Notes under the pieces: generated by a model
Databases searched by the model: none
What the model was told of the DNA's origin: nothing
Seen by the model: only the letters and a program-made list of their open reading frames with translations
Part shown: positions 22,582 to 36,562 of the stretch, one piece after another
Layout of the letters: every line of letters begins with the position of its first letter
Position numbering within the stretch: position 1 is the first letter of the stretch
Program-made: the position numbers and the translations under genes
Source of the DNA: Pseudomonas asplenii
Lineage (GTDB): Bacteria; Pseudomonadota; Gammaproteobacteria; Pseudomonadales; Pseudomonadaceae
Length of the DNA: 64,000 nt
Direction: 5' to 3'
Assembly (NCBI RefSeq): GCF_001293465.1
Contig: NZ_JSYZ01000002.1
Coordinates: forward strand, 91,328 to 155,327

Positions 22582-23178
22582 ATGGCTTTCGAATTGCCGC
22601 CGCTGCCCTACGCACACGATGCCCTGCAGCCGCACATCTCCAAGGAAACCCTGGAGTTCCACCACGACAAGCACCACAACACCTATGTCGTGAACCTGAA
22701 CAACCTGGTGCCAGGCACCGAGTTCGAAGGCAAGACTCTGGAAGAAATCGTCAAGACTTCGTCGGGTGGCATCTTCAACAACGCCGCTCAAGTCTGGAAC
22801 CACACTTTCTACTGGAACTGCCTGGCGCCAAACGCCGGCGGCCAGCCTACCGGTGCCCTGGCCGAGGCGATCAACGCCGCCTTCGGTTCGTTCGACAAGT
22901 TCAAGGAAGAGTTCACCAAGACTTCCGTCGGCACCTTCGGTTCCGGCTGGGGCTGGCTGGTGAAGAAGGCTGACGGCTCCCTGGCCCTGGCCAGCACCAT
23001 CGGCGCCGGCAACCCGCTGACCAGCGGCGACACCCCGCTGCTGACCTGCGACGTCTGGGAACACGCCTACTACATCGACTACCGCAACGTGCGTCCAAAG
23101 TATGTCGAGGCGTTCTGGAACCTGGTGAACTGGAAATTCGTCGCCGAGCAGTTCGAAGGCAAGACCTTCACCGCTTGA
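22582..23178 (+). CDS. sodB: Superoxide dismutase [Fe]
   Basis: A 198-residue cytoplasmic enzyme that converts superoxide to O2 and H2O2. The four metal ligands are all present: His27, His74, Asp157 and His161 (DVWEHAYY). [14 protein letters not shown] and the Gln70 in that segment mark an iron rather than manganese enzyme. ATG 22582 follows AGGAGAA and gives [15 protein letters not shown], the standard start; the longer frame to 22393 is rejected. A double hairpin ends the transcript. Confidence 0.98.
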
Positions 23179-23594: not shown

Positions 23595-25649
23595 TTGAAG
23601 CTGGAACTCAAGCACAGCTTGTCGGTGAAGTTGCTCCGGGTCGTGCTGTTGTCGGCATTGATTGTCGGCGTGGTACTGAGCTGCGCGCAAATCGTGTTCG
23701 ACGCCTACAAGACCCGCCAGGCGGTTGCCAGCGACGCCCAGCGGATCCTCGACATGTTTCGCGACCCCTCGACCCAGGCCGTCTACAGCCTCGACCGGGA
23801 AATGGGCATGCAGGTAATCGAAGGCCTGTTCCAGGACCAATCCGTGCGCATGGCCTCCATCGGCCACCCCAACGAAACCATGCTCGCGGAGAAATCCCGC
23901 GATCTGCAGACCTCCTCCAGCCGCTGGCTCACCGACCTGATCCTCGGCCAGGAACGCACCTTCACCACGCAACTGGTTGGTCGCGGCCCCTACAGCGAGT
24001 ACTACGGTGACCTGAGCATCACCCTCGACACCGCCACCTATGGCCAGAGCTTCATCGTCAGCTCGGTGATCATCTTCATCTCCGGCGTACTGCGGGCGCT
24101 GTTGATGGCCCTGGTGCTGTACCTGGTCTACCACTGGCTATTGACCAAGCCGCTGTCGCGCATCATCGATCACCTGAGCAATATCAACCCGGATCGCCCG
24201 GCGGCGAATCAACTGCCGCTGCTCAAGGGTCACGAAACCAACGAGCTGGGGATCTGGATCAATACCGCCAACCAGTTGCTGGCCTCGATCGAACGCAACA
24301 CCCATCTGCGCCACGAGGCGGAAAACAGCCTGCTGCGCATGTCCCAGTACGATTTCCTCACCGGTCTGCCCAACCGCCTGCAACTGCAACAACAACTGGA
24401 CAAGATCCTGGTCGACGCCGGACGCCTGCAGCGGCGGGTCGCGGTGCTGGTGGTCGGGCTGGACGACTTCAAGGGCATCAACGAACAGTTCGGCTACCAG
24501 ACCGGCGACCAGTTGCTGCTCGCCCTGGCTGACCGTCTGCGCGCCCACAGCGGCCGTCTCGGCGCCCTGGCCCGCCTGGGCGGCGACCAGTTCGCCCTGG
24601 TCCAGGCCGATATCGAGCAGCCCTACGAGGCCGCCGAGCTGGCGCAGAGCATTCTCGACGACCTGGAAGCGCCCTTCGCCCTCGATCATCAGGAAATCCG
24701 CCTGCGCGCGACCATCGGCATCACCCTGTTCCCGGAGGATGGCGACAGCACCGAGAAGCTGCTGCAGAAGGCCGAGCAGACCATGACCCTGGCCAAGAGC
24801 CGCTCACGCAACCGCTATCAGTTCTATATCGCCAGCGTCGACAGCGAAATGCGCCGCCGCCGCGAGCTGGAAAAGGATCTGCGCGAAGCCCTCAACCGCA
24901 ATCAGTTCTATCTGGTCTACCAGCCCCAGATCAGCTACCGCGACCACCGGGTGGTCGGCGTCGAAGCGCTGATCCGCTGGCAGCATCCGGAACACGGGCT
25001 GGTGCCACCGGACCTGTTCATTCCGCTGGCCGAACAGAACGGCACGATCATCGCCATCGGCGAATGGGTACTGGACCAGGCCTGCCGACAGTTGCGCGAA
25101 TGGCACGACCTGGGCTTCACCGACCTGCGCATGGCGGTCAACCTGTCCACCGTGCAACTGCACCACGCCGAACTGCCGCGGGTGGTCAACAACCTGCTGC
25201 AGATGTACCGCCTGCCACCACGCAGCCTGGAGCTGGAAGTCACCGAAACCGGCCTGATGGAAGACATCAGCACCGCCGCCCAGCACCTGTTGAGCCTGCG
25301 CCGCTCCGGTGCACTGATCGCCATCGACGATTTCGGCACCGGCTACTCGTCGCTGAGCTATCTCAAGAGCCTGCCACTGGACAAGATCAAGATCGACAAG
25401 AGCTTCGTCCAGGACCTGCTGGAGGACGACGACGACGCGACCATCGTCCGGGCGATCATCCAGCTGGGCAAGAGCCTCGGCATGCAGGTGATCGCCGAAG
25501 GCGTGGAAACCGTCGAGCAGGAGGCCTACATCATTTCCGAAGGCTGTCATGAGGGCCAGGGCTATTACTACAGCAAGCCACTGCCGGCCCGCGAACTGGG
25601 CGCCTATCTCAAGCAGGCCCAGCGCAGTAACGCGGCAATGCTCCAGTAA
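23595..25649 (+). CDS. bifA: BifA, c-di-GMP phosphodiesterase with GGDEF-like and EAL domains
   Basis: A 684-residue inner-membrane protein. Transmembrane helices lie at about 11-34 and 152-183 with a periplasmic domain between. A GGDEF-like domain (252-410) has GGDQF at 329-333, so diguanylate cyclase activity is unlikely. The EAL domain (425-680) keeps EALIR at 457-461, the DDFGTGYSSL loop and GVETVEQ, so it should hydrolyse c-di-GMP. This architecture and the sodB neighbour match P. aeruginosa BifA (PA4367), which lowers c-di-GMP and favours swarming over biofilm. The start is TTG with AAGGA eight bases upstream; no better ATG is nearby. Confidence 0.95.
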   Translation: MKLELKHSLSVKLLRVVLLSALIVGVVLSCAQIVFDAYKTRQAVASDAQRILDMFRDPSTQAVYSLDREMGMQVIEGLFQDQSVRMASIGHPNETMLAEKSRDLQTSSSRWLTDLILGQERTFTTQLVGRGPYSEYYGDLSITLDTATYGQSFIVSSVIIFISGVLRALLMALVLYLVYHWLLTKPLSRIIDHLSNINPDRPAANQLPLLKGHETNELGIWINTANQLLASIERNTHLRHEAENSLLRMSQYDFLTGLPNRLQLQQQLDKILVDAGRLQRRVAVLVVGLDDFKGINEQFGYQTGDQLLLALADRLRAHSGRLGALARLGGDQFALVQADIEQPYEAAELAQSILDDLEAPFALDHQEIRLRATIGITLFPEDGDSTEKLLQKAEQTMTLAKSRSRNRYQFYIASVDSEMRRRRELEKDLREALNRNQFYLVYQPQISYRDHRVVGVEALIRWQHPEHGLVPPDLFIPLAEQNGTIIAIGEWVLDQACRQLREWHDLGFTDLRMAVNLSTVQLHHAELPRVVNNLLQMYRLPPRSLELEVTETGLMEDISTAAQHLLSLRRSGALIAIDDFGTGYSSLSYLKSLPLDKIKIDKSFVQDLLEDDDDATIVRAIIQLGKSLGMQVIAEGVETVEQEAYIISEGCHEGQGYYYSKPLPARELGAYLKQAQRSNAAMLQ

Positions 25650-25729
25650 GCGGAGCGGTACGCATATACCGATCCGTAATCAAGCAGCAGATTATTAGTA
25701 AATATTTCAAAGACTAATCCTTTACACAA

Positions 25730-25748
25730 AATGCATATCTTTCGCATT
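25730..25748. promoter_or_regulatory. Candidate Fur box before the imelysin cassette
   Basis: AATGCATATCTTTCGCATT is a 19-base element with AATGC/GCATT arms. It matches the Pseudomonas-style Fur consensus (AATGA-N9-TCATT type) at 13 of 19 positions by eye. It lies 62 bases before the imelysin start. Confidence 0.4.
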
Positions 25749-25810
25749 ATGTGTCGGTTTTGCGCGTCCCCGCGCGCACTCGTCCAACCTCTCGAAGCAG
25801 GATACCCGCC

Positions 25811-27154
25811 ATGATTCGCATGCCTCTGGCCACCGCCAGCCTGTTGGCCCTTGCCATCGCCCTCGCCGGCTGTGGCGACAAGGACAAGGAAAAAACCGCA
25901 GCCGCCGCGCCGACACCGGCCGCCAGTGCTCCGGCCACACCTGCCAGCGACGCTGCCGGCAAGGTCGACGAGGCTGCCGGCAAGGCGGTGGTCGCGCACT
26001 ACGCCGACATGGTCTTCGCCGTGTACAGCGATGCCGAATCCACCGCGAAGACGCTGCAGCAGGCCATCGACGCCTTCCTCGCCAAGCCGAACGACGACAC
26101 CCTCAAGGCCGCCAAGGCCGCCTGGGTAGCCGCACGCGTACCTTACCTGCAGAGCGAAGTGTTCCGCTTCGGCAATACCATCATCGACGACTGGGAAGGC
26201 CAGGTGAACGCCTGGCCGCTGGACGAAGGCCTGATCGACTACGTCGACGCCTCCTACGAGCACGCCCTGGGCAACCCGGGCGCCAGCGCCAACATCATCG
26301 CCAACAAGCAGATCCAGGTTGGCGAGGACAAGGTCGATGTGACCGAGATCACGCCGGAAAAACTCGCCAGCCTGAACGAGCTGGGCGGCTCCGAGGCCAA
26401 CGTCGCCACCGGTTACCACGCCATCGAGTTCCTGCTGTGGGGCCAGGACCTCAACGGCACCGGCCCGGGCGCCGGCAACCGTCCGGCCTCGGACTATCTC
26501 GAAGGTGCCGGCGCCACCGGTGGCCACAACGATCGGCGGCGTGCCTACCTGAAGGCCGTGACCCAACTGCTGGTCAACGACCTGGAAGAAATGGTCGGCA
26601 ACTGGAAACCGAACGTGGCCGACAACTATCGCGCCAGCCTGGAAGCCGAGCCGGCCGAAAGCGGCCTGCGCAAGATGCTGTTCGGCATGGGCAGCCTGTC
26701 CCTCGGCGAACTGGCGGGCGAGCGGATGAAGGTATCCCTGGAAGCCAACTCCCCGGAAGACGAACAGGACTGCTTCAGCGACAACACCCACAACTCGCAT
26801 TTCTACGACGCCAAGGGCATCCGCAACGTCTACCTGGGTGAATATACCCGCGTCGACGGCACCAAACTGACCGGCCCGAGCCTGTCGTCGTTGGTGGCGA
26901 AGGCCGATCCGGCCGCCGATACCGCGCTCAAGGGCGACCTGGAAAGCACCGAAGCGAAGATCCAGGTCATGGTTGACCATGCCAACAAGGGTGAGCATTA
27001 CGACCAGTTGATCGCCGCCGGCAACGACGCGGGCAACAAGATCGTGCGCGACGCCATCGCCGCCCTGGTCAAGCAGACCGGTTCGATCGAACAGGCCGCC
27101 GCCAAGCTGGGCATCAGCGACCTGAACCCGGACAATGCCGATCACGAGTTCTGA
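25811..27154 (+). CDS. icmP: Imelysin-family lipoprotein (ICMP-like)
   Basis: A 447-residue lipoprotein; lipobox LAGC with Cys21, then an Ala/Pro/Thr-rich linker to residue 55 and an imelysin domain (about 58-430). The imelysin motif GxHxxE is intact as GYHAIE at 201-206. P. aeruginosa ICMP (PA4370) was described as an insulin-cleaving outer-membrane metalloprotease, but the family is now thought to bind iron or haem-related ligands, as in EfeO/IrpA. ATG 25811 fits the signal peptide; the frame from 25751 does not. It heads a set of exported genes and has a Fur-like palindrome upstream. Confidence 0.87.
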   Translation: MIRMPLATASLLALAIALAGCGDKDKEKTAAAAPTPAASAPATPASDAAGKVDEAAGKAVVAHYADMVFAVYSDAESTAKTLQQAIDAFLAKPNDDTLKAAKAAWVAARVPYLQSEVFRFGNTIIDDWEGQVNAWPLDEGLIDYVDASYEHALGNPGASANIIANKQIQVGEDKVDVTEITPEKLASLNELGGSEANVATGYHAIEFLLWGQDLNGTGPGAGNRPASDYLEGAGATGGHNDRRRAYLKAVTQLLVNDLEEMVGNWKPNVADNYRASLEAEPAESGLRKMLFGMGSLSLGELAGERMKVSLEANSPEDEQDCFSDNTHNSHFYDAKGIRNVYLGEYTRVDGTKLTGPSLSSLVAKADPAADTALKGDLESTEAKIQVMVDHANKGEHYDQLIAAGNDAGNKIVRDAIAALVKQTGSIEQAAAKLGISDLNPDNADHEF

Positions 27155-27169
27155 TCGGTAGCCTGGCCG

Positions 27170-27188
27170 CCCCCTCCCATGGAGGGGG
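27170..27188. other. GC-rich hairpin after the imelysin gene
   Basis: CCCCCTCC (27170-27177) pairs with GGAGGGGG (27181-27188) around a 3-base loop, 16 bases after the stop. There is no T-run, so it may partly terminate or only stabilise the transcript. Confidence 0.5.
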
Positions 27189-27268
27189 TAGTCCTGCGCT
27201 GAACGATACCCTTGTGGCGAGTTCGCCCGTCACAGAGAAACGGATAGCTCACCACACGAATGACTGAT

Positions 27269-27288
27269 CTGGGCAAACGCTTGCCCAG
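27269..27288. other. Perfect hairpin upstream of the di-heme gene
   Basis: CTGGGCAA (27269-27276) and TTGCCCAG (27281-27288) form an 8-bp stem with a 4-base loop, 44 bases before the next start. It could be an operator or a leader structure. Confidence 0.4.
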
Positions 27289-27332
27289 TCCCGACCCGAT
27301 AAGATTCGCGCCCTGTCCCGAACCCTGTGTCC

Positions 27333-28760
27333 ATGCCCATGCCTTCGTTACCTGTTCGCCTGTCGTCGTTGCTGCTGGCCCTGGGCCTGAGTGCCTGCGA
27401 TGACGCCGCGCGCTTCAACGCGCCCGAGCCCGGCGAGGCACGCGCCGGCGGCGGGACCACCGTGGACAGGAGCGATCGCAACAGTTTTTCCCTGCCGTCG
27501 GCCAACCTGTCGCCGGAGCGCCGCCTGGACTTCAGTGTCGGCAACAGTTTCTTTCGCAGCCCCTGGGTGATCGCTCCGTCGACCACCACTGCCCGCGACG
27601 GCCTGGGCCCGCTGTTCAACACCAACGCCTGTCAGAACTGCCATATCAGGGACGGTCGCGGCCATCCTCCAGAAGCCGGCTCGGACAACGCCGTCTCGAT
27701 GCTGGTGCGCCTGTCGATCCCCAATGCGCCAGCCTACGCGAAGCTGATCGAGCAACAGGGCGTGGTGCCCGAGCCGGTCTATGGCGGTCAGTTGCAGGAC
27801 ATGGCCATCCCCGGCGTCATACCGGAAGGCAAGGTACGGGTCGAGTACGACCCGCTGCCGGTGCGCTTCAAGGACGGCACCGAAGTCGAACTGCGCAGGC
27901 CACGCCTGCTCATCAGCCAGCTGGGCTACGGCCCGATGCACCCGGACACGCGCTTTTCCGCGCGGGTAGCGCCGCCCATGATCGGCCTGGGCCTGCTGGA
28001 GGCGATCCCCGAAGAGGCGATCCTCGCCAACGCGAAAGCGCAGCAGCGCGACGGCATCGCCGGTCGGCCGAACCGGGTCTGGGACGACGCCCAGGGCAAG
28101 ACCGTGCTGGGGCGCTTCGGCTGGAAAGCCGGGCAGCCCAATCTCAACCAACAAAACGTTCACGCGTTTTCCGGCGACATGGGCCTCACCACGACCCTGC
28201 GGCCCTTCGATGATTGCACCGCGACCCAGAGCGCCTGTCGCAATGCCCCCAACGGCAATGGCGCCGACGGCGAACAGGAGGTCAGCGACAACATCCTGCG
28301 CCTGGTGCTGTTCTACACCCGCAACCTGGCGGTCCCGGCTCGTCGGGACGTCGGCGCAGAACAGGTACTGGCCGGCAAGCGCCTGTTCCACCAGGCCGGC
28401 TGCCAGAACTGCCATACCCCACAATTCACTACTGCGGCCACTGCCGCCGAGCCGGAGCTGGCCGGCCAGGTGATCCGCCCCTACAGTGACCTGTTGCTGC
28501 ATGACATGGGCCCTGGGCTGGCGGACAACCGCACCGAGTTCCTTGCCAGCGGCAGCGACTGGCGCACGCCCCCCCTGTGGGGTATCGGCCTGACCGGGAC
28601 GGTCAGCGGCCACACCCGATTCCTGCATGACGGCCGCGCCCGCAGTCTGCTCGAAGCCGTGCTCTGGCATGGCGGCGAAGCCTTGCCGGCACAGCAGCGC
28701 GTTCTGTCGTTCAATGCCGAGCAGCGCGCCGCGTTGCTGGCTTTCCTGAATTCGCTATAA
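27333..28760 (+). CDS. Di-heme oxidoreductase (DHOR family, COG3488), probable lipoprotein
   Basis: A 475-residue exported c-type cytochrome. The signal peptide ends in LSAC (Cys22), so it is probably lipid-anchored. Two haem c sites, both CQNCH, are at residues 100-104 and 357-361. The family is called di-heme oxidoreductase/putative peroxidase and often occurs beside imelysin genes. The start is uncertain between GTG 27327, ATG 27333 and ATG 27339; the signal peptide is the same in each. It lies between two imelysin genes, which suggests electron transfer linked to iron uptake; that is inference. Confidence 0.85.
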   Translation: MPMPSLPVRLSSLLLALGLSACDDAARFNAPEPGEARAGGGTTVDRSDRNSFSLPSANLSPERRLDFSVGNSFFRSPWVIAPSTTTARDGLGPLFNTNACQNCHIRDGRGHPPEAGSDNAVSMLVRLSIPNAPAYAKLIEQQGVVPEPVYGGQLQDMAIPGVIPEGKVRVEYDPLPVRFKDGTEVELRRPRLLISQLGYGPMHPDTRFSARVAPPMIGLGLLEAIPEEAILANAKAQQRDGIAGRPNRVWDDAQGKTVLGRFGWKAGQPNLNQQNVHAFSGDMGLTTTLRPFDDCTATQSACRNAPNGNGADGEQEVSDNILRLVLFYTRNLAVPARRDVGAEQVLAGKRLFHQAGCQNCHTPQFTTAATAAEPELAGQVIRPYSDLLLHDMGPGLADNRTEFLASGSDWRTPPLWGIGLTGTVSGHTRFLHDGRARSLLEAVLWHGGEALPAQQRVLSFNAEQRAALLAFLNSL

Positions 28761-28786
28761 GAAATCCTTAATCAGAGGACCTGGAC

Positions 28787-29851
28787 ATGTTCCGCCCCAA
28801 ACTGTTGTTCACCAGCCTCGCCGCACTCGCCATCGGAGCCTGCTCGCCGCAGGATCCACAGGCCCTCACTTCGGCAGCGATCGCCAAGCAGGTGATCCTG
28901 CCGACCTACAGCCGCTGGGTCGAGGCCGATCGCCAACTGGCGATCAGCGCCCTGGCCTTCTGCGAAGGCAAGGCCAGCCTGGACACCGCCCGTGCCGACT
29001 TCCTCCACGCCCAGAAAGCCTGGGCCGAACTGCAGCCGTTGCTGATCGGGCCACTGGCCGAGGGCAACCGCTCCTGGCAGGTTCAGTTCTGGCCGGACAA
29101 GAAGAACCTGGTCGGCCGCCAGGTCGAGCAACTGGTCAGCGCCCAGCCGCAGATCGATGCCGCCACCCTGGCCAAATCCAGTGTGGTCGTCCAGGGCTTG
29201 TCGGCCTACGAATACATTCTGTTCGACAGTCGGATCGACATGGCCGACAGTGCGCAGAAAGCCCGCTACTGCCCGCTGCTGACCGCCATCGGCGAACGCC
29301 AGAAGACCCTGGCCGAAGAGATCCTGTCGCGCTGGAACAGCAACGACGGCATGCTCGCGCAGATGAGCAAGTTCCCGAACCAGCGCTACGCCGACTCCCA
29401 CGAGGCCATCGCTGACCTGCTACGGGTCCAGGTCACCGCGCTGGACACCCTGAAGAAGAAACTCGGCACGCCGATGGGCCGTCAGGCCAAGGGTATTGCC
29501 CAACCGTTCCAGGCCGATGCCTGGCGCAGCCAGTCTTCGCTGCAGGGCCTGGAAGCCAGCCTGGCGGCGGCCCGCACCGTCTGGGTCGGGGTCGACAACA
29601 AGGGCCTGCGCGGCCTGCTGCCGGCCGAGCAGAAGCCGTTGGCCGACAAGATCGATGCCGCCTACGCCGCATCGCTGAAGCTGTTCGCCAGCAACCAGCG
29701 CTCGCTGACCGAGATGCTCGGCGACGACGCCGGTCGCCAGCAGCTCAACGACCTCTATGACAGCCTCAACGTCGTCCATCGCCTGCATGAAGGTGAACTG
29801 GCCAAGGCGCTGGGTATCCAACTGGGCTTCAATGCCAACGACGGTGACTGA
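28787..29851 (+). CDS. Imelysin-like lipoprotein, second copy with degenerate motif
   Basis: A 354-residue lipoprotein with lipobox IGAC (Cys19) and an imelysin-type helical domain. The region aligned to GxHxxE reads GLSAYE at 137-142, so the His is replaced by Ser while Gly and Glu remain. It differs strongly from the 447-residue imelysin upstream and belongs to a different branch. GAGGAC about 8 bases before the ATG supports the start. Its stop overlaps the next gene's ATG by one base, so the two are translated together. Function is inferred to be iron-related binding in the periplasm or at the outer membrane. Confidence 0.83.
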   Translation: MFRPKLLFTSLAALAIGACSPQDPQALTSAAIAKQVILPTYSRWVEADRQLAISALAFCEGKASLDTARADFLHAQKAWAELQPLLIGPLAEGNRSWQVQFWPDKKNLVGRQVEQLVSAQPQIDAATLAKSSVVVQGLSAYEYILFDSRIDMADSAQKARYCPLLTAIGERQKTLAEEILSRWNSNDGMLAQMSKFPNQRYADSHEAIADLLRVQVTALDTLKKKLGTPMGRQAKGIAQPFQADAWRSQSSLQGLEASLAAARTVWVGVDNKGLRGLLPAEQKPLADKIDAAYAASLKLFASNQRSLTEMLGDDAGRQQLNDLYDSLNVVHRLHEGELAKALGIQLGFNANDGD

Positions 29852-30951
29852 TGATGCTGCGACGCCAGGCCCTGACCCTGGGTAGCCTGCTGCTCGGCGC
29901 GATCACGCTGGGCGGCTGGACCCTGTTCCGCCAGAAAGGCAAAAGCCCGCTCCTGCTTTCGGCCCGCGACGACGGCGAGGGCGCACACTATGCCGTGGGT
30001 TATCGACTGGATGGCCAGCAGGTCTTCGCGACCCGGGTCAGCCAGCGTTGCCACGACATCATCCACCACCCCACGTTGCCCCTGGCGGTGTTCGTCGCCC
30101 GCCGCCCCGGCACGCAGAGCTACCTGATCGACCTGCGCGACGGGCGCCTGCTGCAGACCCTGGTCTCGCAGCCGAACCGGCACTTCTACGGCCATGCGGT
30201 GATCCACAAGAGTGGCGACTGGCTGTACGCCACCGAAAACGACACCAGCGATCCGGGGCGCGGCCTGCTCGGAGTCTATCGGTTCGAAGGTGAGCGCCTG
30301 GTCCATGCCGGCGAGGTCCCCACCCACGGCATCGGCCCGCACCAGGTCTCGTGGATGCCCGATGGCGAAACCCTGATCGTCGCCAACGGCGGTATCCGTA
30401 CCGAGGCCGAAAGCCGGGTGGACATGAACCTCGATGCGATGGAGCCGAGCCTGGTGCTGATGCAGCGCGACGGCACCCTGCTGAGCAAGGAGGCCCTGGC
30501 CCAGCAGATGAACAGTGTTCGCCACCTGGGCGTGGCCGCCGACGGCACCATTGTCGCCGGCCAGCAGTTCATGGGGCCGTCCCACGAGTCGTCCGAGTTG
30601 CTGGCGATCAAGCGTCCCGGGCAACCGTTCGTGGCCTTCCCGGTGGCCGAACAGCAGTTGCAGGCAATGGGGCACTACACCGCCAGCGTCGCGGTGCACA
30701 GCGATCTGCGCCTGGTGGCCTTGACCGCGCCACGGGGCAACCGGTTCTTCATCTGGGAGCTGGACAGCGGCCAACTGCGCCTGGATGCCCACCTGCCCGA
30801 CTGTGCCGGCGTAGGCGCGGTGGCCGACGGCTTCGTGGTCACTTCCGGCCAGGGCCGCTGCCGTTTCTATGATTGCCGCCAGAAGGAGCTGACAGCAAAA
30901 CCCCTGGATCTGCCTGCGGGGCTCTGGGACAACCACCTGCATCTGGTGTAA
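29851..30951 (+). CDS. DUF1513 family exported protein
   Basis: A 366-residue protein with an N-terminal LRRQALTLGSLLLGAITLGG stretch: paired arginines then a hydrophobic segment, compatible with a twin-arginine signal. The body has repeated short strands (GDWLYATENDTSDPGRGLLGVYRF, HGIGPHQVSWMPDGETLIVANGG) like a beta-propeller, as in DUF1513. The family is regularly found with imelysin and di-heme proteins and has no established activity. It starts within the stop of the preceding gene (TGATG). It is the last gene of the cassette, followed by a REPIN. Confidence 0.83.
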   Translation: MMLRRQALTLGSLLLGAITLGGWTLFRQKGKSPLLLSARDDGEGAHYAVGYRLDGQQVFATRVSQRCHDIIHHPTLPLAVFVARRPGTQSYLIDLRDGRLLQTLVSQPNRHFYGHAVIHKSGDWLYATENDTSDPGRGLLGVYRFEGERLVHAGEVPTHGIGPHQVSWMPDGETLIVANGGIRTEAESRVDMNLDAMEPSLVLMQRDGTLLSKEALAQQMNSVRHLGVAADGTIVAGQQFMGPSHESSELLAIKRPGQPFVAFPVAEQQLQAMGHYTASVAVHSDLRLVALTAPRGNRFFIWELDSGQLRLDAHLPDCAGVGAVADGFVVTSGQGRCRFYDCRQKELTAKPLDLPAGLWDNHLHLV

Positions 30952-31213: not shown

Positions 31214-32362
31214 ATGCTGCGTCGCCGCATGCTGATCATGCTGGGTCTCGTCCTTCTCGTCGTGCTGGCGCTCGCCGGCTACAAGGCTTTCTCGATCTAC
31301 AAACAGATCCAGGTCTACTCCGCTCCCAAGCCGGCCATTCATGTCGCGGCGGTGACCGCCAATGCCCGCCCCTGGCAGGAGCGTCTGCCCACCGTGGGCA
31401 CGCTCAAGGCCCTGCAGGGCGTCAACCTGAGCCTGGAAATCGCCGGCACGGTCAAGGCCGTGCAATTCGAGTCCGGGCAGAAGGTCAAGGCCGGACAGCC
31501 GCTGCTGCAACTCGACAGCGATGTCGAAAGCGCCCTGCTGGAAACCGCCCAGGCCGACCTGGGCCTCGCCGAGCTGGACTACGGCCGGGGCGCCAAGCTG
31601 GTCGGTAGCCAGGCGATCTCCCGCGGTGAATTCGACCGGCTCTCGGCGGTGCGGCAAAAGAACCGGGCCACGGTCAACCAGCTCAAGGCCGCCCTGGCCA
31701 AGAAGAAGATCCTTGCGCCATTCAGCGGCACCATCGGTATCCGCCAGGTGGATGTCGGCGACTATCTCGCCAGCGGTACGGTGATCGCCACCCTGCAGGA
31801 CCTGAGCAGCCTCTATGTGGATTTCTACCTGCCCGAGCAGTTCATCCCCAAGCTGGCGGTCGGGCAACCGGTGCAACTGAGCGTCGCCGCCTATGGGCAG
31901 GAAGTCTTCCCGGGCCTGCTCAGCGCCATCAACCCCAAGGTCGATGAAACCACCCGCAACGTGCTGGTGCGTGCCACCCTGGCCAATCCCGCTGGCAAGC
32001 TGCTGCCGGGCATGTTCGCCAACCTCCAGGTGCTGCTGCCGGACCCGCAGCCCTATGTGGTGATACCGGAAAGCGCCGTCACCTACACCCTCTACGGCAA
32101 CTCGGTGTATGTCGTGACCCAGAAAAAGGCCGAGGACGGCAGCGTGCTGAAGGAAACCGACGGCCAGCCGCAACTGATGGCGCAGCGGCGCTTCATCAAG
32201 ACCGCCGAACGGCGTGACGGGCTGGTCAAGGTCATCGAGGGCCTCAAGGACGGTGAGCAGGTGGTCAGCGGCGGGCAGTTGAAGCTGGACAATGGCGCGC
32301 ACATCGCCATCAGCCCGGACAAGATGGCGCCCGCCACGACCACCGCCCCTCAGGCGAACTGA
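31214..32362 (+). CDS. RND efflux periplasmic adaptor (MexV-like)
   Basis: A 382-residue membrane fusion protein with one N-terminal anchor helix (about residues 7-24). The lipoyl/hairpin halves are GTVKAVQFESGQKVKAGQPLLQLD (about 80-103) and KKILAPFSGTIGIRQVDVGDYL; the beta-barrel and membrane-proximal parts follow. It bridges an inner-membrane RND pump and an outer-membrane channel. ATG 31214 has AAGGA about 8 bases upstream; the longer frame from 31148 is rejected. It is followed 14 bases later by the pump gene. The gene position matches P. aeruginosa mexV; substrates are not known here. Confidence 0.88.
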   Translation: MLRRRMLIMLGLVLLVVLALAGYKAFSIYKQIQVYSAPKPAIHVAAVTANARPWQERLPTVGTLKALQGVNLSLEIAGTVKAVQFESGQKVKAGQPLLQLDSDVESALLETAQADLGLAELDYGRGAKLVGSQAISRGEFDRLSAVRQKNRATVNQLKAALAKKKILAPFSGTIGIRQVDVGDYLASGTVIATLQDLSSLYVDFYLPEQFIPKLAVGQPVQLSVAAYGQEVFPGLLSAINPKVDETTRNVLVRATLANPAGKLLPGMFANLQVLLPDPQPYVVIPESAVTYTLYGNSVYVVTQKKAEDGSVLKETDGQPQLMAQRRFIKTAERRDGLVKVIEGLKDGEQVVSGGQLKLDNGAHIAISPDKMAPATTTAPQAN

Positions 32363-32376
32363 TCAGGGAGTCGATC

Positions 32377-35300
32377 ATGGCCTTTACCGATCCGTTCATC
32401 CGCCGTCCGGTGCTTGCCTGCGTGGTCAGCCTGCTGATCGTCCTGCTGGGTTTCCAGGCCTATAGCAAGCTGCCGCTGCGCCAGTACCCACAAATGGAGA
32501 ACGCCCTGATCACGGTGACCACCGCCTACCCCGGGGCCAACGCCGAAACCATCCAGGGCTACATCACCCAGCCGCTGCAACAGAGCCTGGCGAGTGCGGA
32601 GGGCATCGACTACATGACCTCGGTCAGCCGACAGAACTTCTCGGTGATCTCGATCTATGCCCGGATCGGCGCCAACAGCGACCGGCTGTTCACCGAGTTG
32701 CTGGCCAAGGCCAACGAGGTGAAGAACAAGCTGCCGCAGGACGCCGAGGACCCGGTGTTGAGCAAGGAGGCCGCGGATGCCTCGGCGCTCATGTACATCA
32801 GCTTTTTCAGCGACCAGTTGAGCAACCCGCAGATCACCGACTACCTGTCGCGGGTGATCCAGCCCAAGCTGGCGACCCTGCCGGGCATGGCCGAGGCGGA
32901 GATTCTCGGCAACCAGGTGTTTGCCATGCGCCTGTGGCTGGACCCGGTGAAGCTGGCCGGCTTCGGCCTCAGCGCAGCCGACGTGACCAATGCGGTACGC
33001 CACTACAACTTCCTGTCCGCCGCCGGCGAGGTCAAGGGCGAGTACGTGGTCACCAGCATCAACGCCAGCACCGAGCTGAAGTCCGCCGAGGCCTTCGCGG
33101 CGATCCCGCTCAAGACCGCCGGCGACAGCCGCGTGCTGCTCGGTGACGTGGCACGGGTCGAGATGGGCGCGGAGAACTACGACACCATCAGCTCCTTCGG
33201 TGGTACGCCCTCGGTCTACATCGGCATCAAGGCCACGCCGGGCGCCAACCCGCTGGATGTGATCAAGGAAGTGCGCAAGATCATGCCGGAACTGGAAGCC
33301 CAGTTGCCGACCAATCTCAAGGCGGAAATCGCCTACGACGCGACCCTGTTCATCCAGGCCTCGATCAACGAGGTGGTCAAGACCCTCTTCGAGGCGGTGC
33401 TGATCGTCATCGTGGTGGTGTTCCTGTTCCTCGGCGCCCTGCGCTCGGTGGTGATTCCGGTGATCACCATTCCGCTGTCGATGGTCGGCGTGCTGTTCTT
33501 CATGCAGTTGATGGGCTACTCGATCAATCTCCTCACCCTGCTGGCGATGGTGCTGGCGATCGGGCTGGTGGTGGACGATGCGATCGTCGTGGTGGAAAAC
33601 ATCCACCGGCATATCGAGGAAGGCAAGACCCCGCTGGAGGCCGCCCTCGAAGGCGCACGGGAAATCGCCCTGCCGGTGGTGTCGATGACCATCACCCTGG
33701 CCGCGGTATACGCCCCCATCGGCTTCCTGCAGGGCCTGACCGGCGCGCTGTTCAAGGAGTTCGCCCTGACCCTGGCCGGTGCGGTGGTGATCTCCGGCGT
33801 GGTCGCCCTGACCCTGTCACCGATGATGTGCGCCCTGCTGTTGCGCCACGACGGCAACACCACGGGGCTGGCGCACCGCCTCGACCAGATGTTCGAAAGC
33901 CTCAAGCAGCGCTACCGCAAACTGTTGCACACCACCCTCGATACGCGCCCGGTGGTGGTGGTGTTCGCGGTGATCATCCTCGGGTTGATTCCGGTACTGC
34001 TGAAATTCACTCATTCGGAGCTGGCGCCCGACGAGGACCAGGGCATCATCTTCATGATGGCGACCGCACCGCAGCCGACCAACCTGAACTACCTGAACCA
34101 ATACACCGACGAATTCATCACTATCTTCAAGGAATTCCCGGAATACTACTCATCGTTCCAGATCAATGGCTTCAATGGCGTGCAGTCGGGGATCGGCGGC
34201 TTCCTGCTCAAGCCCTGGAACGAACGCCGGCGCACGCAGATGCAGATCCTGCCCGAAGTCCAGGGCAAGCTGGCGAGCATTGGCGGGCTGCAGGTCTTCG
34301 GTTTCAACCTGCCGTCACTGCCGGGTACTGGCGAGGGGTTGCCGTTCCAGTACGTGCTCAACACCCCGAACGACTACAGCGCGCTGCTGGACGTCGCCGA
34401 CCGGATCAAGAAACGCGCACTGGAGTCCGGCAAGTTCGCCTTCCTCGATATCGACCTGGCCTTCGACAAGCCCGAGGTGGTGGTGGATATCGACCGCGCC
34501 AAGGCCGCGCAGATGGGGGTGTCGATGCAGGACCTGGGCGCGACCCTGGCGACCCTGCTCGGTGAGGCGGAAATCAACCGGTTTACCCTCGAGGGTCGCA
34601 GCTACAAGGTAATCGCCCAGGTGGAGCGCGCCTACCGGGACAATCCCGACTGGCTCAACAACTACTACGTGAAGAACAGCGAGGGCAGGCTGCTGCCCCT
34701 GTCGACGCTGATCAAGGTTTCCGACCGTGCCCGTCCCCGGCAGTTGAACCAGTTCCAGCAGTTGAACTCGGCAATCATTTCCGGAGTACCGCTTGTCAGC
34801 ATGGGAGAAGCCATCGAGACCATTCGCCAGATCTCCGCCGAGGAAGCGCCGACAGGATTTGCCAGCGACTATGCCGGCGCCTCGCGACAGTACGTCCAGG
34901 AGGGTAATGCGCTGTGGGTGACCTTCGGCCTGGCCCTGGCGATCATCTTCCTGGTGCTGGCGGCGCAGTTCGAGAGTTTCCGTGATCCGCTGGTGATCCT
35001 GGTGACGGTGCCACTGTCGATCTGCGGGGCGCTGGTTCCGCTGTTCCTCGGCTGGTCGAGCATGAACATCTATACCCAGGTGGGCCTGGTGACGCTGATC
35101 GGGCTGATCAGCAAGCACGGGATCCTGATCGTCGAATTCGCCAACCAGTTGCGTCAGGACAAGGGACTGTCGGCGCGGGAAGCCGTGGAGGAGGCAGCGG
35201 CGATTCGCCTGCGGCCGGTGCTGATGACCACGGCGGCGATGGTATTCGGCATGGTGCCATTGATTCTCGCCAGCGGCGCGGGGGCGGTGAGTCGCTTCGA

Positions 35301-35409
35301 TATCGGCACGGTGATCGCCACCGGGATGTCGGTGGGGACGCTGTTTACGCTGTTCGTGCTGCCGTGCATCTACAGCCTGCTGGCGCGGAAGGACAAACCC
35401 GTGGCTTGA
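32377..35409 (+). CDS. RND multidrug efflux pump (MexW-like)
   Basis: A 1010-residue inner-membrane transporter of the HAE-1 RND type, which expels drugs using the proton gradient. The N-terminus PFIRRPVLACVVSLLI and PLRQYPQ are family signatures, as is the proton-relay segment AIGLVVDDAIVVVENIHRHIEE with its Asp pair in TM4. PISMVGVL-like and LIGLISKHGILIVEFANQLR (TM10-11) complete the fold, with two large periplasmic loops. GGGAG precedes the ATG by about 10 bases. No outer-membrane channel gene follows, so it presumably uses a shared OprM-type channel. Confidence 0.93.
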   Translation: MAFTDPFIRRPVLACVVSLLIVLLGFQAYSKLPLRQYPQMENALITVTTAYPGANAETIQGYITQPLQQSLASAEGIDYMTSVSRQNFSVISIYARIGANSDRLFTELLAKANEVKNKLPQDAEDPVLSKEAADASALMYISFFSDQLSNPQITDYLSRVIQPKLATLPGMAEAEILGNQVFAMRLWLDPVKLAGFGLSAADVTNAVRHYNFLSAAGEVKGEYVVTSINASTELKSAEAFAAIPLKTAGDSRVLLGDVARVEMGAENYDTISSFGGTPSVYIGIKATPGANPLDVIKEVRKIMPELEAQLPTNLKAEIAYDATLFIQASINEVVKTLFEAVLIVIVVVFLFLGALRSVVIPVITIPLSMVGVLFFMQLMGYSINLLTLLAMVLAIGLVVDDAIVVVENIHRHIEEGKTPLEAALEGAREIALPVVSMTITLAAVYAPIGFLQGLTGALFKEFALTLAGAVVISGVVALTLSPMMCALLLRHDGNTTGLAHRLDQMFESLKQRYRKLLHTTLDTRPVVVVFAVIILGLIPVLLKFTHSELAPDEDQGIIFMMATAPQPTNLNYLNQYTDEFITIFKEFPEYYSSFQINGFNGVQSGIGGFLLKPWNERRRTQMQILPEVQGKLASIGGLQVFGFNLPSLPGTGEGLPFQYVLNTPNDYSALLDVADRIKKRALESGKFAFLDIDLAFDKPEVVVDIDRAKAAQMGVSMQDLGATLATLLGEAEINRFTLEGRSYKVIAQVERAYRDNPDWLNNYYVKNSEGRLLPLSTLIKVSDRARPRQLNQFQQLNSAIISGVPLVSMGEAIETIRQISAEEAPTGFASDYAGASRQYVQEGNALWVTFGLALAIIFLVLAAQFESFRDPLVILVTVPLSICGALVPLFLGWSSMNIYTQVGLVTLIGLISKHGILIVEFANQLRQDKGLSAREAVEEAAAIRLRPVLMTTAAMVFGMVPLILASGAGAVSRFDIGTVIATGMSVGTLFTLFVLPCIYSLLARKDKPVA

Positions 35410-35557: not shown

Positions 35558-36562
35558 TCACTGGAACAGCGATTCGCTCGACAGGCCGTTCTTCTCCAGG
35601 ATCTCGCGCAAGCGTTTGAGGCCCTCGACCTGAATCTGCCGTACCCGTTCACGGGTCAGGCCGATTTCCAGGCCAACGTCCTCCAACGTGCTGCTCTCAT
35701 GACCGCGCAGGCCGAAACGCCGCACCACCACCTCACGTTGCTTGTCGGTCAACTCCGATAGCCACTGGTCGATGCTCTGGGAGAGGTCGTCGTCCTGCAG
35801 CAACTCGCAGGGATCGGTCGGCCGATCATCCGTCAGCGTGTCGAGCAGGGTCTTGTCCGAGTCCGGGCCGAGGGAAACGTCCACCGAAGACACCCGCTCG
35901 TTCAGGCCGAGCATGCGCTTGACCTCCCCGACCGGCTTTTCCAGCAGGTTGGCGATTTCCTCGGGAGAAGGCTCGTGGTCGAGCTTCTGCGTCAACTCGC
36001 GGGCTGCCCGCAGGTAGACGTTGAGTTCCTTGACCACATGGATCGGCAGACGGATGGTACGGGTCTGATTCATGATCGCCCGTTCGATCGTCTGGCGAAT
36101 CCACCAGGTGGCATAGGTCGAAAAGCGGAAACCGCGCTCCGGGTCGAATTTCTCGACCGCCCTGATCAACCCGAGATTGCCCTCCTCGATCAGGTCCAGC
36201 AGCGAAAGCCCACGGTTGACGTAACGTCGGGCAATTTTCACCACCAGACGCAAGTTGCTTTCAATCATGCGTTTGCGGCCCGCCGGATCGCCGCTTTGCG
36301 ACAGCCGCGCAAAATGGACTTCTTCTTCCGGGGACAACAAGGGGGAAAAACCGATTTCATTGAGATACAACTGGGTCGCATCCAGGGCCCGGGTGTAGTC
36401 AATGTATTTGTGCTGCTTGAGTGCAGCAGCATTTTTGGTCTTGGCACGAACTGGGGGTGGAGAACTATCGTCCTCCGGCATCATATCCATGACAATGTCG
36501 GAGTCCATAAGGAGCACCTCATCGTCGATGTCAAACCCCGGCGCTTCTTTACTGAGAGCCAT
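35558..36562 (-). CDS. rpoS: RpoS, stationary-phase sigma factor (sigma-38)
   Basis: A 334-residue sigma-70-family factor controlling stationary-phase and stress genes. Regions are clear: 1.2 ([21 protein letters not shown]), 2 ([40 protein letters not shown], then [17 protein letters not shown]), 3 and 4 ([28 protein letters not shown]). The length equals that of Pseudomonas RpoS. The leader between nlpD and rpoS is 107 bases and includes a hairpin. In related bacteria the main rpoS promoter lies inside nlpD; I cannot confirm it here. Confidence 0.98.

Follow-up and report, generated by a model that had tools for sequence, protein, structure and literature searches.

An iron response has been reported in several model species for operons that encode imelysins (Peptidase_M75, or M75, proteins); the passages of that literature on which we draw assign no chemistry to these operons. 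An account from 2011 of PA4370-PA4373 in Pseudomonas aeruginosa presents it as an imelysin operon under Fur regulation and compares it with EfeUOB lacking EfeU; the same source covers the counterpart in Vibrio cholerae and describes the P. aeruginosa icmP protein as an insulin-cleaving peptidase (PMC3143127). V. cholerae VC1264 and VC1266 are counted in the iron regulon (PMC5816637). Fold changes for VC1264 and VC1265 are given in PMC7600106, which we do not use as evidence. In Rhodobacter sphaeroides, irpA sits in the iron-regulated transcript hemP-irpA-bfd-bfr-RSP_1545-1543 (PMC4618611). Its induction by iron limitation is stronger under oxic conditions, and the authors group it with the ferric uptake genes (PMC4176601). 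Within the literature collection searched, one paper names two or more of PA4370-PA4373 together, and PA4370 occurs in two more (PMC7044273 and PMC8966770). PA4370, PA4371, PA4373 and imelysin are all absent from PMC12284477. Here we analyze a cassette of this kind at 25811-30951 of a 64,000-nucleotide (nt) stretch of the Pseudomonas asplenii genome (contig NZ_JSYZ01000002.1, positions 91,328 to 155,327; the whole stretch is called the window). The cassette encodes an imelysin (icmP), a di-haem oxidoreductase (DHOR, or DUF1111), a second imelysin and a DUF1513 protein.

The window shares the M75, DHOR, M75 order of PA4370-PA4373 and VC1264-VC1266, and PA4373 is presumably the DUF1513 gene. The likeness to the P. 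aeruginosa operon extends to the motifs, with GxHxxE in the first imelysin (GYHAIE in the window), GxxxxE in the second (GLSAYE) and two CxxCH sites in DHOR. That operon is under Fur-type control; the window appears to have a conserved box at icmP and none recognisable before DHOR. A further difference is the 178-nt gap that separates icmP from DHOR in the window. By every sequence feature tested, the window cassette is an orthologue of PA4370-PA4373, and it is an ordinary member of an already published operon. The R. sphaeroides transcript also contains irpA with three further genes, and RSP_1545-1543 would correspond to DHOR, M75 and DUF1513. It differs in that bacterioferritin genes are inserted and control by IscR is reported instead of Fur (PMC4618611). 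An earlier note on this DNA had named the cassette the best candidate for undescribed biology in the window. It is not undescribed, because the P. aeruginosa operon, Efe comparison included, has been in print since 2011 (PMC3143127). The part that could be new biology is a predicted ring of histidines in DUF1513.

Gene content and linkage

Linkage of the cassette genes is strong across the 398 Pseudomonadota genomes sampled. Full-length DUF1513 is found in 79 of them, about a fifth (86 matched; G166, G178, G187, G223, G258, G346 and G374, with only short weak matches, were dropped), and DHOR in 99 (105, less six with only weak partial matches). All 79 DUF1513 genomes have DHOR, within 6 kb in 78. 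A strong M75 (a single match counted in each genome, scoring roughly 210 bits or higher; at least 88 of 111 genomes) accompanies DUF1513 in 79/79, within 10 kb in 72, among the matches listed. The two-by-two table of DUF1513 against DHOR reads 79, 0, 20, 299, and its p value is not to be taken literally because the genomes are related. DUF1513 without DHOR thus has zero cases in the sample; DHOR is present in all 88 strong-M75 genomes, nine of which lack DUF1513 (again among the matches listed). Order and strand of all four genes are identical in 37 of the 37 loci that hold the four, out of 60 fetched. The earlier note had set the co-occurrence of these families as its own check, and on these counts they do co-occur.

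The four forward-strand genes were delineated from the list of open reading frames (ORFs) and from family profiles, and ORFs and Pfam bear out the families, exported products and coordinates first proposed for them (Table 1). The two CQNCH haem sites of DHOR are likewise as described (C100-C103-H104 and C357-C360-H361, each residue in 58/58 aligned sequences). The claimed 1-base overlap of the last two genes holds provided that DUF1513 starts at 29851, and is lost with a start at 29854. Both imelysins do look like lipoproteins; a count of two is too low, since the N-terminus of DHOR carries a lipobox-like LSAC, whose Cys is invariant in a 39-sequence Pseudomonas alignment, and three of the four proteins therefore look membrane-tethered. 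The HxxE metal motif is present in icmP, where G201, H203 and E206 are each invariant (52/52 aligned sequences), and lost from the second imelysin, where E142 is kept in 44/45. By sequence, the icmP product matches 7xrx in the PDB (E 5.2e-194), and the second M75 matches 3pf0 (E 1.3e-18); the same search gave no convincing match for DHOR. Rfam (gathering scores) and tRNA scans across the 64,000 nt of the window found no match.

Table 1. Features of the cassette and of its surroundings in the window.
Feature	Position	Strand	Evidence or remark
Candidate icmP promoter	25721-25750	+	TTTACA -35 (25721-25726), 18 nt, CATTAT -10 (25745-25750)
Candidate Fur box AATGCATATCTTTCGCATT	25730-25748	palindrome	In the -35/-10 spacer; pattern scan and conservation
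Peptidase_M75 imelysin lipoprotein, icmP / PA4370-type	25811-27154	+	ORF, Pfam PF09375, GYHAIE (GxHxxE) motif
icmP-DHOR gap, 178 nt	27155-27332	+	Possible boundary between units; hairpin rich in GC and lacking a T run; -10-like GATAAG close to the start of DHOR
DHOR (DUF1111, PF06537) di-haem oxidoreductase, PA4371-type	27333-28760 (alternative start GTG 27327)	+	Two CQNCH sites
Second M75 lipoprotein, PA4372/IPPA-type	28787-29851	+	PF09375; GxxxxE variant motif GLSAYE, His lost
DUF1513, PA4373 position	ATG 29851 or 29854 to 30951	+	RR export motif; predicted seven-bladed propeller
Fe/Mn-type superoxide dismutase gene (SodB-like)	22582-23178		Two genes 5' of the cassette
GGDEF/EAL protein gene, presumably BifA-like	23595-25649		Upstream neighbour
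RND efflux adaptor and pump genes	31214-35409		Downstream neighbours
Sigma-70 family factor, presumably RpoS-like	35558-36562	-	Regions 1.2 to 4; adjoins the RND pump genes

Variants of the cassette were seen in a few relatives. Three loci (L076, L077 and L078, of G204, G162 and G306) hold one without DUF1513, consisting of icmP, DHOR, a diverged M75-like gene (without a Pfam match in L077), a gene for a membrane protein (FA_hydroxylase in L076, assigned by blast cluster or start of sequence in L077 and L078) and a CCP_MauG peroxidase gene (by Pfam in L076 and L077). The 'IPPA' labels for L039, L075 and L076 are weak. A tandem DHOR pair lies between both imelysins in L063 and L067 (G007 and G342).

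Promoter and transcription units

The earlier note placed four genes behind one Fur-like palindrome, and the palindrome itself holds up. It begins 3 bases past TTTACA, occupies most of the spacer and overlaps the CATTAT -10 element; the promoter scan is weak alone (1 found, against a shuffle mean of 0.7). Measured on the textbook Fur consensus, GATAATGATAATCATTATC, the site scores 11/19, which is chance level (shuffle mean 10.1, maximum 14). It has 2 mismatches to a Pseudomonas-type pattern, AATGMRAATNATTYKCATT, and this fit is partly circular because the pattern was written after the site was seen. The genome-wide counts are not circular: with 3 mismatches or fewer the pattern occurs at 27 places in the 7.14 Mb genome, against 1 for a reversed control, and the window site is among the seven with 2 or fewer. 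Nor are the matches at both PrrF loci, which hold sites among the 27 and which we take to be known Fur targets. Ten sites, hand-picked from 15 with loci (the window's own included), were scanned for nearby genes. Eight of these genes are related to iron or metals (TonB receptors, an ECF-type (extracytoplasmic function) sigma factor, FecR, Nramp and a binding protein; the FecR gene, in L185, lies about 0.8 kb from its site), and the remaining two are a cytochrome b561 and a phage-type repressor. Upstream of icmP, the Fur-type box is kept at 3 mismatches or fewer in 51/55 Pseudomonas loci, against 0/275 shuffles (one of the 56 icmP-holding loci starts too near a contig end). In the broader Pseudomonadota set, 24/51 icmP loci have a Fur-type site at p 0.05 or better. 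We regard the site, on pattern and conservation, as a credible Pseudomonas-type Fur box.

The placing of all four genes behind this box fares less well, since in Pseudomonas icmP and DHOR-M75-DUF1513 are probably separable units. The latter three genes are tightly packed, with gaps of at most 60 nt in 79/80 and at most 30 nt in 80/80 loci. Over the 56 icmP-holding loci the icmP-DHOR gap has a median of 246 nt; outside Pseudomonas it is often short (median 66 nt in 35 mixed loci). A terminator-like hairpin lies 3' of icmP in 46/56 Pseudomonas loci, compared with 2/56 in shuffles. In 13 of the 56 (L099, L104, L109, L113, L139, L143, L148, L154, L160, L165, L171, L172 and L176) icmP is more than 700 nt from DHOR, and this wide spacing suggests repeated insertion or rearrangement at the junction. 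Small ORFs sit between the two genes in L051, L053 and L096. icmP was not found in 24/80 Pseudomonas loci; in 20 of these the upstream sequence reaches 5 kb or more (20/76). In 7/79 genomes of the broader Pseudomonadota sample icmP lies more than 10 kb from DUF1513. A weaker Fur-like match (5 mismatches or fewer, typically AACGATAATTCCTCTTATT) precedes DHOR in 53/56 icmP-linked and 24/24 unlinked Pseudomonas loci, with 4/280 and 5/120 in the respective shuffle controls, and a -10-like element lies 3' of it. Among stand-alone cases this match reaches p 0.01-0.02 in three and is not significant in five. At 8 mismatches, the element carried by most Pseudomonas loci cannot be recognised in the window, and the GC-rich hairpin in the gap has no T run and a z of -1.8. 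For these two reasons, transcription from the icmP promoter may read through the gap here.

A candidate histidine ring in DUF1513

The DUF1513 protein (numbered from ATG 29854) has its nearest relatives in P. gingeri (93%) and P. agarici (91%), among the 80 relatives kept. Residues R65, H67, R83, P85, G113, H114, H163, G179, G180, S221, H224, Q238, Y275, D359 and H361 are invariant in 46 diverse sequences. The RR export motif is also well kept (R4 in 46/46, R3 in 45/46). Among 31 members, seven give a Pfam TAT_signal match with E no higher than 1; the window protein gives none, and it does not have the F that usually follows RRx. An AlphaFold model built on a 46-sequence Pseudomonas alignment (predicted local distance difference test score, pLDDT, 79; predicted template-modelling score, pTM, 0.81) contains 27 strands of at least 3 residues, consistent with seven blades closed by the C-terminal strand. 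With blades assigned by hand from the predicted strands, the innermost strands of blades I-IV carry H67, H114, H163 and H224, which precede strand B by 9-10 residues in every case, and no other of the 15 histidines before residue 357 is at such a position. H361 belongs to the innermost strand of blade VII, which it closes. This positional test was defined after the pattern had been seen, and it uses strand positions rather than coordinates. The five-histidine ring is, on this model, a candidate metal centre.

The model finds its fold neighbours (VIA Z) among lactonases (up to 29.6), hydrazine synthase (28.6), nitrous oxide reductase (28.2) and thiocyanate dehydrogenase (26.4). Searched by sequence, the PDB gave no convincing match for DUF1513, the top rows being short chance-like stretches; rows for thiocyanate dehydrogenase (E 0.55-1.1) are too weak to count. 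A pattern search of viral contigs found no DUF1513 relative, and no paper in the literature collection searched names DUF1513 or PF07433. We offer tentatively, as a possibility short of a probability, that DUF1513 is an unrecognised Tat-exported metalloprotein whose five ring histidines, contributed by five different blades, hold an Fe or Cu centre in its central channel, and that it forms with DHOR a periplasmic iron-redox pair (ferroxidase or ferric-release) passing iron from the imelysins to any importer. The defined candidate metal site and the constant pairing with DHOR make the function of IrpA-type operons directly testable.

A proposed iron relay, alternatives and known systems

On balance we lean toward an envelope module of the PA4370-PA4373 type, switched on by iron starvation and relaying iron in the following steps. 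The two membrane-tethered M75 proteins would hold iron in the periplasm. The di-haem DHOR would move electrons or use peroxide, and so change the oxidation state of iron or free ligand-bound iron. DUF1513, exported folded via Tat, would carry metal at its histidine ring and would work obligately with DHOR, perhaps as ferroxidase or redox partner. Iron, more likely Fe(III), would then pass to whichever inner-membrane importer exists (FbpABC-like, EfeU, siderophore or haem routes), with no dedicated permease. A periplasmic iron-linked set, as the earlier note had it, is supported by the Fur-type box, by the linkage and by the reported regulation of orthologues (PMC3143127, PMC5816637, PMC4176601, PMC4618611). 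Neighbouring genes in relatives, each link being a single case or few, are in part of the same kind. In G306 (L078) a binding protein, a two-domain permease and an ABC ATPase lie directly upstream of icmP-DHOR, the ATPase passing the ferric-transporter model NF008513 (631 bits, cut-off 496). A ferritin-like gene in G325 (L055) and a multicopper oxidase gene in G008 (L073) lie between icmP and DHOR, and G226 (L095) has on the opposite strand a ferritin-fold gene, presumably Dps-like. FTR1 beside icmP in G162 (L077) and TonB receptor genes near the cassette in L047, L052, L061 and L079 are further iron-linked neighbours.

Permeases bear on the direction of iron. FTR1 is present in 18/79 DUF1513 genomes and in 137/319 others (odds ratio 0.39, p 0.001, a value that is optimistic because the genomes are related). 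FeoB, searched for in the 79 only, is present in 22, and 44/79 have neither; the cassette therefore cannot generally depend on FTR1 or FeoB. Because carriers mostly lack both, and because irpA responds more strongly under oxic conditions and is grouped with ferric uptake genes (PMC4176601), we lean, with modest confidence, to delivery as Fe(III).

Several observations weigh against the relay. The two imelysin structures solved are described as distinct from known metallopeptidases and also from known iron-binding proteins (PMC3143127). We infer both the metal of DUF1513 and the redox activity of DHOR; the AlphaFold model of DHOR, from a shallow Pseudomonas alignment, has a pLDDT of 32 and no conclusion was drawn from it, and hhalign profile comparison of DUF1513 with NosZ is negative (12% probability). 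No significant Fur-type box was found in 27/51 icmP loci of Pseudomonadota relatives; by kinship labels 22 of these lie outside the class of the window and five inside, one of them in the same family. The Fe(III) direction draws on one or two relatives for each point and on known Fe(II) permeases being missing. Of the Fe(II) routes, which also include Nramp and ZIP, the survey covered FTR1 and FeoB, and the own genome has an Nramp gene at a Fur-like site. The binding protein and permease of G306 score highest, below cut-off, to aminoethylphosphonate models, and in G162 (L077) FTR1 adjoins icmP, which favours the Efe analogy.

That analogy, argued for the P. aeruginosa operon (PMC3143127), would make the cassette an Fe(II) system of the EfeUOB kind that has no permease of its own and feeds EfeU, with DHOR replacing EfeB and the imelysins replacing EfeO. 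M75 domains are common to both, and the own genome has EfeU, in a separate EfeU-EfeO-EfeB-EfeM set on contig C3, and a second FTR1 protein on C7; its FTR1 matches are on these two contigs. The latter (G000:C7:248830-249432; L036:1339-3234, - strand) is a 631-residue protein with a CxxCH stretch ahead of the FTR1 permease part; FTR1 ORFs of similar length (about 625-713 residues) were found repeatedly within its genus and family among the genomes sampled. Against this, 61/79 DUF1513 genomes are without FTR1, which is under-represented among them, and the own Efe locus keeps a DyP-type EfeB (PF04261/PF20628), an EfeO of cupredoxin (PF13473) and M75, and EfeM. We consider the Efe reading unlikely. 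As for the earlier proposal of Efe-like Fe(II) supply without EfeU, the missing permease stands, there being no FTR1 in the cassette, whereas its Fe(II) part is weakened by the 44 carriers with neither permease, by the complete Efe set elsewhere and by the linked genes of relatives, which fit Fe(III) equally well.

Somewhat less likely still is a release of iron from haem or ferric chelates, with DHOR and DUF1513 acting on the ligand or haem and the imelysins catching the iron. It would agree with the company of irpA, which shares its transcript with hemP, bfd and bfr (PMC4618611), and with the TonB receptor genes near the cassette in several relatives. Against it, the neighbours scanned, in what was not a systematic search, showed no haem-uptake gene. 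We think it improbable that the cassette detoxifies peroxide in iron-starved cells, with DHOR as a di-haem peroxidase and the others supplying or shielding iron. Pfam does label DHOR a putative peroxidase, CCP_MauG genes lie downstream in G204 (L076) and G162 (L077), genes of that blast cluster also follow DUF1513 in L043 and L060, and a superoxide dismutase gene is nearby (Table 1). Yet this would leave the co-occurrence of M75 and DUF1513 unexplained, and irpA is grouped with ferric uptake genes (PMC4176601). Least probable of all is a proteolytic cassette of surface or periplasmic M75 metallopeptidases with incidental iron control, for although icmP carries GxHxxE and its P. aeruginosa counterpart is described as insulin-cleaving, the second M75 has no such His, there is no peptidase among the constant partners (one a di-haem protein, the other a propeller), and the fold is unlike known metallopeptidases (PMC3143127).

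The iron relay that we favour can be set beside known propellers and Efe systems. The seven-bladed fold of the DUF1513 model is common to NosZ and thiocyanate dehydrogenase and to many other families, and lactonase-type propellers match the model as well as NosZ does. NosZ has conserved His in like positions (PHGxNTSPDG vs PHxxxxMPDG), which we take to be CuZ ligands; NosZ has seven of these, compared with five ring His in DUF1513. NosZ also has a C-terminal CuA cupredoxin domain, whereas the DUF1513 domain, at residues 61-364 of 365, leaves none. No DUF1513-NosZ relationship is claimed because of the profile comparison given above.

EfeUOB and the cassette both place M75-domain iron proteins in the periplasm next to a haem protein. 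In favour of the relay, copper, iron and zinc are bound by EfeM of P. syringae, which has M75 alone (PMC9174327). The cassette nevertheless fails three defining features of EfeUOB. EfeUOB has an FTR1 permease in the operon and the cassette none; its EfeB is a DyP peroxidase, in place of which the cassette has DHOR; and its EfeO has a cupredoxin domain, whereas both cassette imelysins carry PF09375 alone. DUF1513 is in turn present in the cassette and absent from EfeUOB. If the proposed DUF1513-DHOR pair is real, envelope iron oxidoreductases, of which multicopper oxidases and DyP-type EfeB are two kinds, would gain a third.

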